DNA from: a virus | DNA length: 46,522 nucleotides | Virus record (IMG/VR): IMGVR_UViG_3300023313_000011 | Span: 1-46,522 of that record | Strand: one strand, 5' to 3' | Part shown: positions 4,477 to 27,187 of the stretch, in pieces | Position numbering within the stretch: position 1 is the stretch's first letter | How the letters are laid out: every line of letters starts with the position of its first letter | Notes under the pieces: model-generated | Databases searched by the model: none | What the model saw: the letters and a program-made list of their open reading frames with translations, nothing else | Told to the model about the DNA's origin: nothing | Made by a program: the position numbers and the translations under genes

Positions 4477-5223
4477 ATGAAAAACAAGCTAGAAAACAAA
4501 GCACTCTTTAATCAAAACGACGGATCTGGCGGAGGGGCACCTCCTGAGGGAGAAGCACCAGCATTCGACCCAGCCAAGTTCCAGGAAGAGATGAAGGACT
4601 TCACAGTCCGTGCAGTCAACGGCGCAGTCTCAACCCACCTCACACGCGCTCTTGATAAACGCCTTGAGGAGAACAACGCCGGCATTCTGAGCAAGCTTCA
4701 GGAACTCATGCCCCAACAGGCGGCCGCATCCCCTGCACCTACAGTAGAACCTTCCAGCGACCTCGACGCTGCCATCAAGAACGCCACCGCCCCTCTCATG
4801 AAACAACTGGAGGAACAACGTGCTCTAAATGAGCGGAATGCCGCCGCGGCGAAGGCGGAGCAAGATAAGCGCATGCAACAAGAGGAACAATCGGCCCTGT
4901 CACAGGCCCTTTCAGCCAACGGCGTGCCTGGACCTCTCGCACAAGCAGCGGTACACGTCCTTCGTGGTAGTTTAGAGCGCGACTCTTCAGGGTCCTTGGT
5001 GTACGTGTCGAAGGAAAACGGCCCTACGGGTCAGTACGAGGAGCGAATCTCCATCGAGGAGGGTGTTTCGCGTTACCTTCGAACGGACGAAGGCAAGCAC
5101 TTTTTGCCTGCACGAGCCGTAGGAGGAGCTGGCAACACAGGAGGCTCAGCACCAGCTGCCGCAGGTGGCAAGGAATCTGACGGGGACTTTGTAGGGCGCA
5201 TGCTCTCCAACTTGCTAGGATGA
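4477..5223 (+). CDS. Prohead scaffolding protein
   Basis: The composition is that of a scaffold: no cysteine, a highly charged and glutamine-rich coiled-coil stretch (roughly residues 70-145, LEEQRALNERNAAAAKAEQD region), glycine/alanine linkers at both ends and an acidic, low-complexity N-terminus. Scaffolds direct assembly of the capsid shell and leave before maturation. It lies after portal and MuF-like genes, as expected, but the capsid gene is 3.4 kb further on rather than adjacent. The start at 4477 is chosen because AGGAG lies seven bases upstream; an upstream ATG at 4450 in frame lacks a ribosome site. No serine-protease motif was seen, so a maturation-protease fusion is not supported. 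Confidence 0.75.
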   Translation: MKNKLENKALFNQNDGSGGGAPPEGEAPAFDPAKFQEEMKDFTVRAVNGAVSTHLTRALDKRLEENNAGILSKLQELMPQQAAASPAPTVEPSSDLDAAIKNATAPLMKQLEEQRALNERNAAAAKAEQDKRMQQEEQSALSQALSANGVPGPLAQAAVHVLRGSLERDSSGSLVYVSKENGPTGQYEERISIEEGVSRYLRTDEGKHFLPARAVGGAGNTGGSAPAAAGGKESDGDFVGRMLSNLLG

Positions 5224-5684
5224 GACGGGTTGCTGCAATATTAGCAGTCCTCGTGATGAGCTGCTCCCCCTACATGCCAAACGCAAGAGGCATAAAGGTA
5301 GTGGAGGGGCTCAAGCTCGACAATCAGGCCAAGGCCATGCTGCTGACTCAGAAATTCGTGGAAGACTCCATGGGCTTCCCTTCGGGCAGTATCTGGCAAG
5401 ACATCGAGGTGTTTTGGTCCAACGAGACCTGTACTCATTCAAACGGGTCAACGGGGCGAGCAGTCAAGTACAACGGAAAGTGCTACGCAGGTATCGGGTT
5501 CAACTGTAGGGAACTCTATGTAGCTCTGAGTTCTGGAACACGTATCTGTGGCACGGCGCTGGCCCATGAGTTGACGCATTGCGTTATACTAGAGGCTACT
5601 GGGGATGCGGATAAATACCACACCTCTAAGGCGTGGGACGGTACCACGCTGGCTGATGAGGGGATCTGTGCAAGAGGATGGTAA
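5220..5684 (+). CDS. Secreted HExxH zincin-like lipoprotein
   Basis: A 154-residue protein with a lipoprotein-type signal: basic MRR, a hydrophobic stretch and a cysteine at residue 15 (VMSC). A zinc-binding HELTH motif lies near residues 116-120 (AHELTHCV), with TLADEG about 30 residues later that could hold the third metal ligand. Several cysteines suggest disulfides outside the cytoplasm. The inference is a small membrane-anchored metalloprotease or metal-binding protein made late in infection. It overlaps the scaffold stop by four bases (ATGA) and the next gene by seven bases, so it is translated with the head genes. Its substrate is unknown. A second HExxH lipoprotein is encoded at 36203-36814 on the other strand and is not closely similar by eye. 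Confidence 0.65.
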   Translation: MRRVAAILAVLVMSCSPYMPNARGIKVVEGLKLDNQAKAMLLTQKFVEDSMGFPSGSIWQDIEVFWSNETCTHSNGSTGRAVKYNGKCYAGIGFNCRELYVALSSGTRICGTALAHELTHCVILEATGDADKYHTSKAWDGTTLADEGICARGW

Positions 5685-6151
5685 CCTTCCTTATAGTAAC
5701 GGCCCTGGTCTACGTCGTGGGGAACGTAGGTGGATATGTAGTCCACAGGCTCCTACACCAACCGTGGACCGGCCGGCCATACGAGGACCACTATAATCAC
5801 CACTTCATAATCTACCCGCCTGAGGACTACCTCTCCTACGTGTATAGGGAGCCTCCTATTGAAGCAGAGCAGGCCAAGTACTACGTACCTGTGTTCGTGG
5901 TTATCATGGCCCCTCTACTTCTATTCGGGTGGGAATGGTACGCTGTTGGGTTTGTGGAGAGTTGCGCCGTTCTTAAGCTTAACGCGTGGATTCACGATTC
6001 TATACATGTTAGAGGCCATTGGTTGGAGAGGTTCGATTGGTTTCACACCTTGAGGGACTGGCACCTGACGCATCACGTTGATGTGAGCAAGAACTTCGGT
6101 ATATTCTCATTCTTCACAGATCATATCCTGGGTACATTCAAGAAGAGGTGA
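5678..6151 (+). CDS. Fatty acid hydroxylase/sterol desaturase-like membrane protein
   Basis: A 157-residue protein with four spaced histidine clusters: H23xxxH27, H38xxHH42, H106xxxH110 and H129xxHH133. This is the di-metal-binding pattern of membrane fatty acid hydroxylases, sterol desaturases and carotenoid hydroxylases. Hydrophobic segments lie at about residues 3-22 and 70-100. Family members insert an oxygen or a double bond into lipid substrates using a di-iron centre and O2. The protein is short but all histidine clusters are present, so it looks intact. It starts seven bases inside the previous gene (ATGGTAA). The family is unusual in a phage head operon, and remodelling of host membrane lipid or pigment is an inference. 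The exact substrate cannot be read from sequence. Confidence 0.75.
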   Translation: MVTFLIVTALVYVVGNVGGYVVHRLLHQPWTGRPYEDHYNHHFIIYPPEDYLSYVYREPPIEAEQAKYYVPVFVVIMAPLLLFGWEWYAVGFVESCAVLKLNAWIHDSIHVRGHWLERFDWFHTLRDWHLTHHVDVSKNFGIFSFFTDHILGTFKKR

Positions 6152-6155
6152 GGAT

Positions 6156-6359
6156 ATGAATGAGAAAGACACCCGGGACATCAAGGTCATAACAGCGATG
6201 CTATCCATAATATTCACTTGCCCTATCAGGGCAGGGAATTGGTTGGAGGCAGAGAATCCGGCGTTTGGTGGACTTTCAGCCCTAGAGATGGTGGCTGAAG
6301 GGGAGTCTGACAGGGTACTTAAGTACTTGACAAGTATGGCATCCAGCGGTGGTTGGTAA
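6156..6359 (+). CDS. Small protein resembling the Xre/MbcA/ParS toxin-binding domain
   Basis: A 67-residue protein. Residues from about 26 onwards (AGNWLEAENPAFGGLSALEM, then GESDRVLKYL) match the shape of the DUF2384 domain found at the C-terminus of RES/Xre-type and MbcT/MbcA antitoxins: a W-L then NPxxGGxxPL-like core and a helix ending in L. It lacks a separate DNA-binding helix-turn-helix, and no partner toxin gene is next to it. A GAGG ribosome site sits just upstream. A phage orphan antitoxin could neutralise a host toxin, which is inference. The match is by eye only. Confidence 0.5.
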   Translation: MNEKDTRDIKVITAMLSIIFTCPIRAGNWLEAENPAFGGLSALEMVAEGESDRVLKYLTSMASSGGW

Positions 6360-6391
6360 TAAAGTCCCTAAAATAAGTAGTAAAAGCCCCT

Positions 6392-6403
6392 GTGTGGTAG
6401 TAC
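6392..6403 (+). promoter_or_regulatory. Possible extended -10 promoter before dcd
   Basis: TGgTAGTAC (hexamer 6398-6403) resembles the extended -10 elements upstream of the portal and capsid genes. There is no good -35 at 17 bases. Transcription would start near 6410, leaving only about three bases before the ATG at 6413, which also has no Shine-Dalgarno. A near-leaderless transcript is therefore possible. Confidence 0.35.
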
Positions 6404-6412
6404 GATAACTGC

Positions 6413-7006
6413 ATGATCCTTTCAGATAGAGATATTAGAATGCGATTATCTGGCAGCTGGGACCCTGAAACGTCCAAGCCTACAGATATCGTCATAATCC
6501 CAACCCCGTCCGAGATTCAGATACAACCCGCTTCTGTAGACTTGAGATTAGGAACATCGTTCGCAGTGTGCGACGGTAGCCCTATTGATACGCGTAATCA
6601 GAGCTCTGTGGAGAGTGCCTACTCTCGTTTTGATACGGTGGATGGAGCACCTGTTGTCCTCGAACCTGGAGAATTCATGCTAGCTTGTACTGAGGAGTGG
6701 TGTAAAATCCCCCTCGACCTGGTAGCACGTGTTGAGGGGCGTTCCAGCTTAGGCAGGATAGGTATAGTCATACACGCCACAGCGGGTTTCATCGACCCTG
6801 GATTCGAAGGGCAGATAACTCTAGAGCTTACCAACTTGAGCAAGAGCAGAATCATGTTACATTCAGGCATGAGGATAGCACAGCTTGCTTTCACACAGTT
6901 GACCAACAAGGCTATGTCTTACGCGTCAAAAGGCAAGTACCAGGGACAAGAAGGTGTAACAATCAGCCAAATAGGCTTAGACGTACAGAAAGAGATAACA
7001 TGTTAG
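6413..7006 (+). CDS. dcd: dCTP deaminase (Dcd family, possibly bifunctional dCTP deaminase/dUTPase)
   Basis: Dcd converts dCTP to dUTP, and the bifunctional forms go on to dUMP, the substrate for thymidylate synthase. The 197-residue protein has the family core: IQPASVDLRLG, EGRSSLGRIG, HATAGFIDPGFEGQITLEL and the C-terminal KYQGQEG. The AGFIDPGFEG form and KYQGQ tail resemble the mycobacterial/archaeal-like bifunctional group more than the E. coli form. It overlaps the deoxynucleotide kinase gene by seven bases. With ThyX and the class II reductase on the other strand, it completes a dTTP supply route. Mono- versus bifunctional activity is not certain from sequence. Confidence 0.92.
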   Translation: MILSDRDIRMRLSGSWDPETSKPTDIVIIPTPSEIQIQPASVDLRLGTSFAVCDGSPIDTRNQSSVESAYSRFDTVDGAPVVLEPGEFMLACTEEWCKIPLDLVARVEGRSSLGRIGIVIHATAGFIDPGFEGQITLELTNLSKSRIMLHSGMRIAQLAFTQLTNKAMSYASKGKYQGQEGVTISQIGLDVQKEITC

Positions 7007-7752
7007 TGATAGCGTTTTTAGCCAGGGCAGGATCCGGTAAGACCACAGCGGCCGAGTTCCTTAGAAAGAACCACGGCGCTGTGAGGTTGAGTTTCGCTGG
7101 CCCCCTCAAGTACATGGCCATGATGGTAGGAGAACTATCCCAGTGTCAGGTATTTGGGGACAAGAAAGAAGAGATGGATGATAGGCTTGGTATGTCTCCC
7201 AGGAGTTACCTTCAGAGGATGGGTAGTGCCGCAAAGGTATGTATGGGAGATGAGGTTTGGGTACACGCTCTCCTGCACAAGATAAAGCAGGAGGAAGAGA
7301 AAGGTACCGAGATTGTGGTGGTAGATGACTGCCGCTATATGAATGAGGCCAAGGCAATGAAAGCCTTATATAATGGACACGTTATCAAAATCGAAGCGGA
7401 CGTACCTAAAATGCAGCATCCTAGCGAGGCTGAGGTCGACCTTGTGCCTATGGATGACATAACTATAACTCTTCACAATGACAAAAGCCTAGGGCTGAAG
7501 TCTTTCGAGGACCAAATACAGGGAGTACTGTTGAAATGTCTTGGTATATTCGGGCCTCAACACGACGAAGATACAAAAGGAATCAAGGCAGAAGTACCAT
7601 TGGAGTCGATAGATGCCCTAAGAATAGCCCTCACAGACCTCAATAGAGCGGAGGCGTCGGCATGGGTGTTCAATAATCAGGACACCGAGGATTCGTATGA
7701 TGCGCTTAGGGATGCAGCCAGTAGTTTGATAAGGAGACTTGAAAATGAGTAG
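7000..7752 (+). CDS. Deoxynucleoside monophosphate kinase-like P-loop protein
   Basis: The N-terminus has a Walker A loop ARAGSGKT (residues 8-15) followed by AEFL and FAGPLK, typical of phage deoxynucleoside monophosphate kinases that phosphorylate dNMPs to dNDPs. VVVDDCRYMNEA fits the DxR/Walker B-like strand of this family, and a LID-type region follows. At 250 residues it is slightly long: the last 60 or so residues (from about residue 190) form an extra helical extension of unknown role. Overlap with dcd supports a shared nucleotide function. Confidence 0.8.
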   Translation: MLVIAFLARAGSGKTTAAEFLRKNHGAVRLSFAGPLKYMAMMVGELSQCQVFGDKKEEMDDRLGMSPRSYLQRMGSAAKVCMGDEVWVHALLHKIKQEEEKGTEIVVVDDCRYMNEAKAMKALYNGHVIKIEADVPKMQHPSEAEVDLVPMDDITITLHNDKSLGLKSFEDQIQGVLLKCLGIFGPQHDEDTKGIKAEVPLESIDALRIALTDLNRAEASAWVFNNQDTEDSYDALRDAASSLIRRLENE

Positions 7753-7993
7753 AAAGAGAAAAAAACCAAGAGACGTCAGCGTATCCATGCATTTCACAGA
7801 GAAAGAGTACGACGCGTTGATGGTAGAAGTACATAAATTCCCGGAAATCTCCATAGCAGAGTACTGCAAATTCAAGGTACTGAACCCTACTGTCACTGAT
7901 ATGCGCCGTTTCATAAAATCTGCCATCATGGAAGCTGTTGGTAAAAAACCTATTGGGGACGGAGGTATTCGAACCTGGTGGGAGGACGAGTGA
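7745..7993 (+). CDS. Small basic protein, unknown function
   Basis: 82 residues starting MSRKRKKP. ATG 7745 is chosen because AAGGAG lies eight bases before it; the frame is open a little further upstream from a TTG. The N-terminus is strongly basic, followed by VSVSMHFTEKEYDALMVEV, which resembles the strand-helix start of ribbon-helix-helix-like DNA-binding proteins, but the match is weak. It overlaps the kinase stop. The product could be a small regulator; no firm family is recognised. Confidence 0.6.
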   Translation: MSRKRKKPRDVSVSMHFTEKEYDALMVEVHKFPEISIAEYCKFKVLNPTVTDMRRFIKSAIMEAVGKKPIGDGGIRTWWEDE

Positions 7994-8229
7994 GCGTGAC
8001 GGACATGTTTAAGGAATTGATACCTTTTGTAGGCGCAGAGGATAGCCCAGAGATCAGGAAGGAGATGGCGAGCATCATAATTCGTTTCACTCCTAGCCTT
8101 ACGCGTGATGATGTAGAGAAGGCCATCGATGGTATCCTTGCCAATATAGCCCCTGAAGAAGTTACTGTCAGCGAGGCTAAGACCTATATAGTACCTGGAT
8201 CCAAGAGGAAAAAGTACCTCTTGAACTAA
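7990..8229 (+). CDS. Hypothetical protein
   Basis: 79 residues from a GTG that overlaps the previous stop (GTGA), with GGAGG four bases upstream. An in-frame GTG at 7978 lies further up but inside the previous gene. The sequence is a mostly helical, acidic/basic mix with no recognised motif. It is the last gene before the structured RNA region. Confidence 0.55.
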   Translation: MSVTDMFKELIPFVGAEDSPEIRKEMASIIIRFTPSLTRDDVEKAIDGILANIAPEEVTVSEAKTYIVPGSKRKKYLLN

Positions 8230-8234
8230 TTTAT

Positions 8235-8316
8235 GCGTGTGGCGTTTGGTGCACTTCTTGTGGCGGAATAATAGTACTACCGTCGCTTGAACCCGGTTCA
8301 ATTCCGGGCCACACGC
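8235..8316 (+). ncRNA. tRNA-like element with acceptor stem and T-arm (copy 1)
   Basis: GCGTGTGG (8235-8242) can pair over eight bases with CCACACGC (8309-8316). Between them lies a perfect T-arm: stem CCCGG (8292-8296), loop TTCAATT, stem CCGGG (8304-8308), directly joined to the 3' acceptor strand as in a tRNA. The middle 49 bases do not fold into convincing D and anticodon arms: only GGCGG (8262-8266)/CCGTC (8280-8284) and short CAC/GTG pairings are visible. The 3' end reads ACC followed by six T, not CCA. It is therefore a tRNA-like or decayed tRNA element, not a normal tRNA. It follows the last gene of the accessory operon and may also end that transcript. Confidence 0.5.
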
Positions 8317-8333
8317 ACCTTTTTTAAGAAAGT
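8287..8333 (+). repeat. 47-base direct repeat, copy 1 (T-arm, acceptor 3' strand, T-run)
   Basis: Identical to 8486-8532. It spans the T-arm hairpin, CCACACGCACC, six T and AAGAAAGT. Perfect identity over 47 bases, while flanks differ completely, points to recent duplication or strong selection. Confidence 0.9.
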
Positions 8334-8345
8334 ATCAAAAAAGAG

Positions 8346-8374
8346 TTGCATTTACAGCTCTATATTGCTATACA
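8346..8374 (+). promoter_or_regulatory. Promoter for the structured RNA
   Basis: TTGCAT (8346-8351), 17 bases, TATACA (8369-8374) with TGc before the hexamer. The predicted start is about 8381, just before the 10-base-pair closing stem of the RNA at 8388. The position suggests a dedicated promoter for a small RNA. Confidence 0.55.
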
Positions 8375-8380
8375 TTATAT

Positions 8381-8525
8381 GCCACTAAGGCAGGTAGCTC
8401 CTGCCGGTGGGGTAACACGAGTGGTAACTACGTAGGGGAACGTATCTGACCTCTACGTAGTTGACTGCTCACTACCTGCCTCTGTTTGAACCCGGTTCAA
8501 TTCCGGGCCACACGCACCTTTTTTA
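8381..8525 (+). ncRNA. Structured small RNA with competing stems and a tRNA-like 3' module
   Basis: Starting just after its own promoter, the sequence has an outer stem AGGCAGGTAG (8388-8397) with CTACCTGCCT (8472-8481). Inside it is a long arm (8419-8438 with 8450-8470, about 20 pairs and one bulged G, loop 8439-8449). A second CCTGCC at 8400-8405 can pair with the same GGCAGG (8389-8394) using a five-base loop, so the outer stem and a local hairpin exclude each other. The 3' end is a T-arm hairpin (8491-8507), CCACACGC and six T (8519-8524). No open frame of note exists. A regulatory RNA or leader switch upstream of the capsid gene is inferred; no known RNA family is recognised. Confidence 0.55.
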
Positions 8526-8532
8526 AGAAAGT
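8486..8532 (+). repeat. 47-base direct repeat, copy 2
   Basis: Identical to 8287-8333. Here the T-arm has no own 5' acceptor strand nearby; the only GCGTGTGG is at 8235-8242, so both copies could compete for it in a read-through transcript. Confidence 0.9.
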
Positions 8533-8534
8533 TC

Positions 8535-8563
8535 TTGACAAGATTCAGGAACTTTGGTATAGT
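8535..8563 (+). promoter_or_regulatory. Strong promoter for the major capsid gene
   Basis: TTGACA (8535-8540), 17 bases, TATAGT (8558-8563) preceded by TGg: the best promoter match in the window. The transcript would start near 8570 and carry a leader of about 105 bases to the capsid ATG, including a GCCC-CAAA-GGGC hairpin shortly before the AAGGA ribosome site. Confidence 0.75.
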
Positions 8564-8675
8564 GCAATTACGCTACATCTAGTAGTTGCACGCGGTTCCC
8601 ATGCGACAAGGGAGATTTGACAAAAACCTCTTCTGTAGCATAACGCCCCAAAGGGCATAAAAAGGAACCAAAAAC

Positions 8676-9779
8676 ATGGCTGATATTAATAAAGCGGCGA
8701 TTGCGAACGCCCTAACTCAACGCTTCTCTGACCGAATCGCTTCCACCATTAACCGTACTGTGCTTCTTGCTCAAATTGTACCCGTTAAGAACGACCGCGG
8801 TCAAGGACAAAATGTCCAGTGGGACGCTAAATTCGGAGCTGCCACAGGCGCACCTATCGCTGATGGCGCTGACGTTACTGTATTCAACAACGATGACAAA
8901 GTACCTGCAGTCCTACAATTCGCTGTACACCACGATGCATTCCGTCTTACTGGTCTTGCCCGTGCTGCCGCTGCAGCCGCTGGTAACCCTAGTGATCTTT
9001 CTGACCTTTTCATGGACGCCTTAGGCGACAGTGTTGAGCGTCAAGCAAAGGGAATCTCTCAACAACTTTATCTAGGCGCTGGTACTACCGGCCCTCAACT
9101 CATTCACGGACTTGCCCCTGTGGCAGGTGTAGCAGCCATCGGAGATTCCGGTGTTTATGCTACCATTGATCGCGCAGTTCGCCCTGCATGGTCTTCAACT
9201 GTGATTGACGCTACTGCATTCAACGCAGCTAACCTTACCGGTCGTTTTGGTCTTACCTTAGCCGGTGAGTCAGCCCCTGAAGGCATCAAGATGATGCGCG
9301 CCGCAAGTCGTGCCATCTATGAAGCCAGCTCAGAGCCTTATGATGTTATCATCACAAGCCCTATCATTCATGAAGCTTACGGGTTAGCCGTACACGCTGA
9401 ACGTCGCTGGACCGACACTGTTCGTACCGCAAGTGGTATGGTCAAGTTGGACGCTGGTTATCAGGTACTTGAGTTTGATGGTAAAATCATCATTCAAGAC
9501 GTTGATTGTCCCGCAGGAGAGATGTTGTTCATCAATACTCGCCACATGCACATCCAGCAGCTCGCTGACCGTGCTGACCGTGTAAACGGAGCTCTTGGTA
9601 TGGCAAGCGTAGCAGGAACTGCAGACGAATTCCTCGGTGGAGGAAAGACCAAGCTTTCTGCACGTATCCAGCCTCTTCAGGTTGCCGGTGATGCCAATCC
9701 GTTCGCTCTCTACAGCTATCTTCAGTTGTGCGTTAAGAGCCCGAACCGCTTCGCACGTATCACGAACCTTATCCCTTAA
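8676..9779 (+). CDS. Major capsid protein (HK97-fold)
   Basis: A 367-residue protein with a strong dedicated promoter, an AAGGA ribosome site and position after the head assembly genes. It has the features of an HK97-fold shell protein: a helical N-terminal arm, a long extended-loop region (roughly 40-90, DADVTVFNNDD-like), a spine helix and a C-terminal strand region (KTKLSARIQPLQVAG). Codon use differs from neighbours: it is rich in GCT/CGT/CTT-type codons and has no ACGCGT, in line with high expression. No N-terminal protease cleavage site can be defined. The assignment rests on position, composition and fold-level resemblance. Confidence 0.85.
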   Translation: MADINKAAIANALTQRFSDRIASTINRTVLLAQIVPVKNDRGQGQNVQWDAKFGAATGAPIADGADVTVFNNDDKVPAVLQFAVHHDAFRLTGLARAAAAAAGNPSDLSDLFMDALGDSVERQAKGISQQLYLGAGTTGPQLIHGLAPVAGVAAIGDSGVYATIDRAVRPAWSSTVIDATAFNAANLTGRFGLTLAGESAPEGIKMMRAASRAIYEASSEPYDVIITSPIIHEAYGLAVHAERRWTDTVRTASGMVKLDAGYQVLEFDGKIIIQDVDCPAGEMLFINTRHMHIQQLADRADRVNGALGMASVAGTADEFLGGGKTKLSARIQPLQVAGDANPFALYSYLQLCVKSPNRFARITNLIP

Positions 9780-25507: not shown

Positions 25508-25872
25508 AAAAGAAGATCAAAAAGACCAAAGACCTCACCAAGGGCACCATGCGCCTTCGGGGTAACCTCAAACTCAAGTACGCAGCATCGGTGTACTCCA
25601 TGCAGGCATCCAGCGCCAAGCTAGAGACCATGCAGGCACGTTTGAAGCACCTGGCAGAGACCGATGAGAAGTTTGCAGAGGTGCTAGGCATGTTGAGCGA
25701 GGAGCAAGAGCTCAAAGCTGACGCGTCTAAGTCCGCGGCCAAGCTACAAGTCACAGCCAAAGAGGTGTGCGAGAAATTCAACATTCCATTCCCGGAATTC
25801 CGCCAATACGTGGTGGATACGGAGAGTGGGCAAATAACACACACCCCAATAAAGGACAAAGATAATGGCTGA
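25504..25872 (+). CDS. Hypothetical helical protein
   Basis: 122 residues, basic at the start (MKKKIKKTKD), then a long helical or coiled-coil stretch (ASSAKLETMQARLKHLAET). It overlaps the fibre gene behind it. Could be a fibre chaperone or linker; no family recognised. Confidence 0.5.
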   Translation: MKKKIKKTKDLTKGTMRLRGNLKLKYAASVYSMQASSAKLETMQARLKHLAETDEKFAEVLGMLSEEQELKADASKSAAKLQVTAKEVCEKFNIPFPEFRQYVVDTESGQITHTPIKDKDNG

Positions 25873-27187
25873 AGTAAGAGTTTTATATATGGACGCGGTA
25901 GACGGTTTCCCTTCGGAGATCGATCCTGCCTTAGATACGATCACCCTAGCGGGCCTAACCCTTGGTGGCGACCTCGCCATGGGCGGAAACAAGATCACTG
26001 GACTTCTCGATGGCACTGCAGTGACGGACGCAGTGACCTTTGGGCAGTTCGACGCAGCCTTGACGGGCTTGGACTACAAAGCTAGTGTACGCGTAGCAAC
26101 GACTGCCGATTCCGGTGGTACGTTCAACGCAGGCGGCGGCACTTTGGCGAAGGGTCAAATTGTAGGTGCTCCTGGTACCATCGACGGTGTGCTCCTTGTA
26201 GCAGGGGACCGTGTCTTGGTGAAGAACCAAACCACGCCCCTCCAAAACGGCATCTACGAAGTTACCGCTTCCATCACCACGTGGGACCGTGCTAGCGATT
26301 GTGATGACGACTTGGAAGTCGCCGATGGTATCACCACTTGGGTGGGCGAAGGTACGACACAAGGAGATACGCGTTGGACACTCACGACCAACGATCCCAT
26401 CACCGTGAACACCACTGGTCAGACCTGGGTACAGACCGCAGGGTCCGGTTCGAACACCGGGGGCAACGGCATCAACATCGCAGGTAGCGTGGTATCGGTG
26501 GACCTCGACGCTACACCGGGCCTCGAGTTCAACGCTGCTAAATTACGCGTATTGGTAGACCCCGCAGGCGCCGTGCTTCGCGGAGCAGCTGGCCTCAGCG
26601 TGAGCACCGGTAACGGCCTTAGCATCACAGCCAACGCCGTGACAGTCGACCTCGCAGCCACACCAGGCCTCGAGTTCAACGCTGGGCAACTTCAGGCCAA
26701 GGTAGACCCTGCAGGAGCTCTTCAACGTGTAGCTGCAGGCCTCGGTATCATCGTCGACGGTGTCAGCATCCAAATCAACGGGTCAAACCAGCTCGAAGTC
26801 ATTGGCGCAGGCGATGCAAATCGCTTGACCAACCCCTTCACAGCACAGGTGACCCTATCCTTGGGAGACCCTGTCTTCGCAACCACGACTAACGGTGAAG
26901 TCGGAAAAGCTGACGCTTCTGTAGCAGCATCCGCACGCGGGTTCATCGGACTTGCAAAGACAGCCGCCGCCGCAACAGCCGCCGTGGACGTAGTGAGCGA
27001 CGGTATTGCATCCGGTGTACTGACAGGTGGAAGTTTCACCGCAGGTCAGGCAGTGTTTGTAGGTGCAGGCGGTGGATTAGTAGCAACCCGTCCATCCGTG
27101 TCAGGTAGTCACGTGATGTACCTGGGACGTGCGGTTAACCCCAACGACCTTATGCTTCAACCTCAATACTTCGGGCGAGTAGCATAA
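25865..27187 (+). CDS. Long tail fibre with internal repeats
   Basis: 440 residues. The middle carries two near-identical repeats, each of the form GNGxxI... VxVDLxATPGLEFNA..L.. VDPAGAxxR (about residues 200-285), a pattern of extended beta-prism-like fibre shafts. The C-terminus (GGSFTAGQAVFVGAGGGLVA ... MYLGRAVNPNDLMLQP) resembles a fibre tip. The repeats at the DNA level lie about 26460-26740 and allow in-frame expansion or contraction. Confidence 0.65.
   Translation: MAEVRVLYMDAVDGFPSEIDPALDTITLAGLTLGGDLAMGGNKITGLLDGTAVTDAVTFGQFDAALTGLDYKASVRVATTADSGGTFNAGGGTLAKGQIVGAPGTIDGVLLVAGDRVLVKNQTTPLQNGIYEVTASITTWDRASDCDDDLEVADGITTWVGEGTTQGDTRWTLTTNDPITVNTTGQTWVQTAGSGSNTGGNGINIAGSVVSVDLDATPGLEFNAAKLRVLVDPAGAVLRGAAGLSVSTGNGLSITANAVTVDLAATPGLEFNAGQLQAKVDPAGALQRVAAGLGIIVDGVSIQINGSNQLEVIGAGDANRLTNPFTAQVTLSLGDPVFATTTNGEVGKADASVAASARGFIGLAKTAAAATAAVDVVSDGIASGVLTGGSFTAGQAVFVGAGGGLVATRPSVSGSHVMYLGRAVNPNDLMLQPQYFGRVA

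Follow-up and report, generated by a model that had tools for sequence, protein, structure and literature searches.

A tailed-phage genome from IMG/VR carries a tandem pair of predicted RNA elements at the junction between an upstream operon and the promoter of the capsid gene, and the two are tied together by a perfect 47-bp direct repeat. The first copy of the repeat (R1) is the 3' half of a tRNA-like element (RNA1), and the second (R2), 199 bp further on, follows a strongly folded element (RNA2) in which the copied acceptor strand has no partner. We favor, with slightly less than even confidence, a duplicated tRNA-like 3'-end module: the 3' end of RNA1 would insulate the capsid promoter, and recombination would have copied this 3' half onto RNA2.

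The record, IMGVR_UViG_3300023313_000011, has terminase, portal, capsid, sheath and baseplate genes in 46.5 kb; the window analyzed here is that whole stretch of 46,522 nucleotides. The record contains no codon-reading tRNA, and no integrase was found among the about 30 window proteins scanned, a subset of its open reading frames.

Features at the capsid-gene junction (window positions)
Feature	Position	Strand	Description
RNA1, predicted tRNA-like RNA	8235..8319	+	fold z -3.4; 1 of 200 shuffles equally good
R1, first repeat copy	8287..8333	+	T-arm, acceptor 3' strand, ACC, T6 and AAGAAAGT; 3' half of RNA1
Stretch separating R1 and R2	8334..8485	+	152 bp; possible weak promoter, then RNA2 body
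Promoter of the sequence-only reading	8346..8374	+	TTGCAT-17-TATACA; weak, 7/12 (3/6 + 4/6)
Overlapping alternative promoter	8351-8378	+	TTTACA-16-CATTAT; 9/12, promoter scan
RNA2 body	8388..8481	+	P1 8388-8397/8472-8481; local hairpin 8389-8394/8400-8405; 20-pair arm 8419-8438/8450-8470
R2, second repeat copy	8486..8532	+	T-arm 8491-8507; acceptor strand CCACACGC 8508-8515, partnerless in RNA2
Capsid-gene promoter	8535..8563	+	TTGACA-17-TATAGT; 11/12, TG before second hexamer
Major head (capsid) protein gene	8676..9779	+	PHROG 9953, E 2.4e-15

The repeat and the predicted folds of RNA1 and RNA2

RNA1 has the arrangement typical of a tRNA, a canonical T-arm (8292-8308; CCCGG TTCAATT CCGGG) stacked directly on an acceptor stem. 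The acceptor stem comprises 8 bp (8235-8242/8309-8316, GCGTGTGG/CCACACGC; 5' strand of the RNA, GCGUGUGG), and together the two stems form 13 stacked base pairs with no mismatch. The acceptor strand is followed by A-C-C and then by T6. Between the acceptor strands lies a hairpin with a 7-bp stem and a 13-nt loop (8260-8266/8280-8286) instead of the 5-bp/7-nt anticodon arm, and the centroid fold contains no stable D-stem. When both strands were searched with a descriptor that required a canonical T-arm directly next to an 8-bp acceptor stem paired throughout, the window gave this single match and 100 shuffled windows gave none. A 12-codon frame, ATG...TAA (MRVAFGALLVAE; 8232-8270), directly follows the preceding gene and overlaps the 5' half of RNA1; it has no clear ribosome-binding site.

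The two copies of the 47-bp repeat are 100% identical, and the window contains no other long direct repeat that is perfect. Elsewhere, the open reading frame at 25865-27187 contains a 135-nt stretch in two tandem copies that are 70% identical (26462-26743). On the plus strand GCGTGTGG occurs only at 8235 and 19867, so RNA2 lacks an acceptor 5' strand of its own. In each copy the repeat tail is followed by a promoter sequence, the weak one preceding RNA2 after R1 and that of the capsid gene after R2. Between the copies, the 152-bp stretch has no open reading frame of its own of at least 60 aa, and in phage, plasmid and IMG/VR searches its sole match, besides short chance-level ones, was the sibling contig described below. 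We also considered a DNA operator, TTGAACCCGGTTCAA, which is confined to the two repeats, and a 17-mer, GGCAGGTAGCTCCTGCC, which matches two other viral contigs with similarity ending within 20 bp; both were set aside.

RNA2 is the most strongly folded element that we sampled in this genome. The segment 8381-8485 reaches -49.9 kcal/mol (RNAfold) with a z-score of -4.5 against 200 dinucleotide shuffles. A genome scan with 105-nt windows and 30 shuffles each gave z -5.5 for the window at 8381, which ranks first; the 311 sampled windows had a mean of -0.3, a standard deviation of 1.1 and a lowest value of -4.8. An earlier reading made from the sequence alone had described two alternative partners of a GGCAGG segment (8389-8394), and both exist: CCTGCC at 8400-8405 closes the local hairpin, and CCTGCC at 8475-8480 belongs to the distal helix P1, which extends to 10 bp. 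The 20-pair arm it described is likewise there, with one bulge. In shorter transcripts the local hairpin is lengthened by CCACU/GGUGG. The predicted balance between the helices varies with the ends of the RNA, the ratio of distal to local pair probability being 0.95:0.05 for 8381-8485, 0.73:0.27 for 8381-8519 and 0.45:0.55 within 8232-8532. These values come from unconstrained ViennaRNA calculations only; runs that forbade one helix behaved as over-constrained.

The sequence-only reading had drawn the element as 8381-8525. That interval encloses a real fold but amounts to half of the feature: it is too short on its left side, leaving out RNA1 with the first copy of the 47-bp repeat, and the duplication itself had escaped that reading. 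Its T-arm module is present and canonical; the module is, however, not RNA2's own but duplicates the 3' half of the neighboring tRNA-like RNA, which changes how the element is to be interpreted.

Promoters, relatives and known RNA families

What had been called a good promoter of RNA2 proves weak, agreeing with the consensus at 7 of 12 positions, and the promoter scan instead reports a different, overlapping site at 9 of 12; chance alone would yield 1.6 threshold-passing sites in the scanned kilobase. The placement directly upstream of the capsid promoter holds, as the feature stops 3 bp before it. At neither R1 nor R2 did a terminator scan detect a standard intrinsic terminator, and it returned no terminator-like site in 7900-8900. 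Three bases separate the acceptor stem from the U-run in R1, and 11 separate the T-arm from the U-run in R2. Downstream of the strong promoter, the 5' leader of the capsid gene (8551-8676) also folds strongly (z -3.6 at 8551, one of the lowest values sampled across the genome); capsid leaders of relatives are structured too, and no common fold was seen among them.

Only one other carrier of the pair was found, the sibling contig IMGVR_UViG_3300013233_000743, which is 98.8% identical over 13.1 kb. Within this alignment a 2.8-kb tract, 6016-8846, is free of differences, and in its flanks 500 bases contain up to 36 of them, a pattern that suggests a recent recombination tract. Because the identical tract includes protein-coding sequence, it reflects recent exchange or ancestry and not constraint on the RNA, and we rejected it as a sign of selection. 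Searches through the neighboring dNMP kinase gene or the small gene at 7978-8229 returned no further carriers. Twelve more contigs encode a capsid of the same family at 36-49% identity, and in none of them does the capsid junction contain the repeat or anything comparable to the tRNA-like element. A distant relative (L015) carries a canonical tRNA-Arg (tct) gene at 504-577.

The relative with 49% capsid identity (L003) offers a parallel in position. There, a hairpin resembling an intrinsic terminator, CCCCTAG...CTAGGGG, lies in the gap that separates the scaffold gene from the capsid gene, and it is followed by T6 and then by AGTTCTTGACA. The tail of R2 matches this junction at 86% over 22 bp with an E-value of 0.59, so that the argument rests on position and context, not on the score. 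The arrangement in L003 is consistent with a terminator/promoter junction, and by analogy it suggests that transcripts arriving from upstream end at a junction of this type. In our phage a block at 5220-8229 lies between the scaffold and capsid genes and encodes a fatty-acid-hydroxylase-like protein, a dCTP deaminase and a deoxynucleoside monophosphate kinase; in L003 the scaffold and capsid genes are adjacent, and the block together with the RNAs may have been a single insertion.

The folding statistics and the database models bear out the earlier view of a structured RNA outside known families. No Rfam model reached its cut-off in the window, and ARAGORN at its default threshold called neither a tRNA nor a tmRNA. 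At relaxed thresholds RNA1 scored 20.8 bits with tRNA-Sec (cut-off 47) and 16.4 bits with mascRNA, and the end of RNA2 scored 18.7 bits with tRNA (cut-off 29) by virtue of its T-arm copy. We rejected a canonical tRNA, as the hits to tRNA models, at 18.7-20.8 bits, all fell below threshold. The tRNA-Sec score arises essentially from the 8+5 acceptor/T geometry, which RNA1 shares with bacterial tRNA-Sec, as it shares a canonical T-arm and a 3' A followed by CC with the tRNA families (RF00005, RF01852). Unlike them, it lacks a D-stem, its hairpin has a 7-bp stem and a loop of 13 nt, and its scores lie far below the cut-offs; with no UCA anticodon, geometry is the only point on which a selenocysteine tRNA fits. 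Relaxed ARAGORN called 8236-8515 a tmRNA. RNA1 does resemble the tRNA-like domain of tmRNA (RF00023) in having an acceptor stem and T-arm with the D-stem missing, but the 5' part does not form P2 with the segment before the T-arm, ATKAGSSCRWGNTSGNYVGERI is implausible as a tag, and the tmRNA model finds no match. RNA1 is thus partly tRNA-like, and we class it neither as a tRNA nor as a tmRNA.

Small noncoding RNAs that bear tRNA-like modules include the bacterial Y RNAs (YrlA) and mascRNA. The present elements share such a module, the match to mascRNA being weak, but they meet no Rfam cut-off, and no gene for a Ro60-type partner was present among the proteins scanned. Literature searches turned up no account of such a phage RNA.

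A duplicated 3' end and the competing explanations

How might two such elements have arisen, and what could they do? The explanation that we favor takes RNA1 to be a D-armless tRNA-like RNA or a decayed tRNA gene. Its acceptor/T-arm helix and U-run would most likely set the 3' end of the upstream transcript, through termination and/or processing of the RNase P/RNase Z type. An acceptor/T-stem minihelix is the minimal substrate of RNase P, which makes processing at 8235 plausible. A 3' end at this place would insulate the strong capsid promoter, and the helix followed by T6 may fill the role that the terminator hairpin and T-run appear to play in L003. Recombination at the tRNA-like 3' half would then have placed a second copy, R2, beyond the 152-bp stretch encoding RNA2, leaving RNA2 either as a small RNA that ends in a T-arm or as the leader of transcripts that read through into the capsid gene. 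Since R2 by itself has neither a terminator stem nor an acceptor partner, RNA2 would end inefficiently or run on into that gene.

The layout looks like the footprint of an insertion at a tRNA gene, an event that leaves complete and partial tRNA copies at the ends, with 44-bp repeats on record (PMC9897764). Here too the repeated segment corresponds to a tRNA-like 3' end, with a whole copy of the gene on one side and a 3'-partial copy on the other as in attL/attR, and the direct repeats are of matching size, 44-47 bp. Unlike such elements, however, the insert measures 152 bp and not kilobases, the pair lies within a phage genome, and the scan of about 30 proteins found no integrase. The repeat unit of 199 bp, far below the size of known tRNA-targeting elements, counts against integration, and given an insert of only 152 bp a small recombination or gene conversion is as likely as site-specific integration. 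An attP copy of a host tRNA was discarded, as neither of two T-arm/acceptor strings is matched exactly in genome_contigs (84,980 species).

The same partial copy could also be debris, because partial tRNA copies are common remnants of this kind (PMC9897764): a decayed tRNA gene plus an accidental 199-bp insertion or duplication, with no present RNA function. Absence of the element from the 12 more distant relatives and the orphaned acceptor strand of RNA2 fit this explanation; we nonetheless think it unlikely, as RNA2 folds better than any other sampled window of the genome and the mismatch-free acceptor and T stems of RNA1 are unlike decayed sequence. We hold equally doubtful the proposal that RNA1, joined by RNA2 through its T-arm tail, acts in trans as a tRNA mimic, a decoy for tRNA-binding host proteins such as RNase P, the CCA enzyme, elongation factor, SmpB or a tRNA-cutting defense nuclease. 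The canonical T-loop, the 13-bp stack and the 3' ACC would suit a decoy, as would a record without a codon-reading tRNA, but the tRNA models score weakly, the D-stem is missing, the anticodon is not clear and RNA2 has no acceptor 5' strand.

A switch or attenuator, as the sequence-only reading proposed, would instead act in cis: RNA2 would be a leader in which the choice between the local hairpin and P1 sets read-through into the capsid gene directly downstream. Part of this proposal stands, in that the two helices are mutually exclusive and of similar predicted stability, with a balance that depends on RNA length; the bistability of 8381-8519 is equalled in 5% of shuffles and in none of 100 other genome windows, which is suggestive of a regulatory switch, not proof of one. 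The part that fails is the output, for neither fold is tied to a terminator or to a sequestered ribosome-binding site. Moreover, the strong capsid promoter downstream of RNA2 means that a switch could act on minor read-through only, and we judge this mechanism quite improbable. A further possibility follows from the joint transcript, in which the predicted partner of the acceptor 5' strand is R1 (probability 0.82) or R2 (0.18). The duplicate 3' halves might compete for this single strand, with a tRNA-like domain forming within RNA1 or, over about 260 nt, enclosing RNA2, and so couple a tRNA-mimic fold to transcription into the capsid operon, an idea to which we give very little credence.

The anatomy of the locus is unusual, it comes from essentially one genome, and RNA1 and RNA2 are predicted RNAs. 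Should the pair be debris, it would counsel caution, as a T-arm module located between phage genes may be a partial copy of a tRNA. If transcribed, it would represent a small RNA of phage origin that ends like a tRNA and matches no catalogued family, encoded at the junction that precedes the capsid gene, which is normally among the most highly expressed genes of a phage. It would also illustrate that a tRNA-like 3' half copied within a virus genome can give another RNA a new tail.
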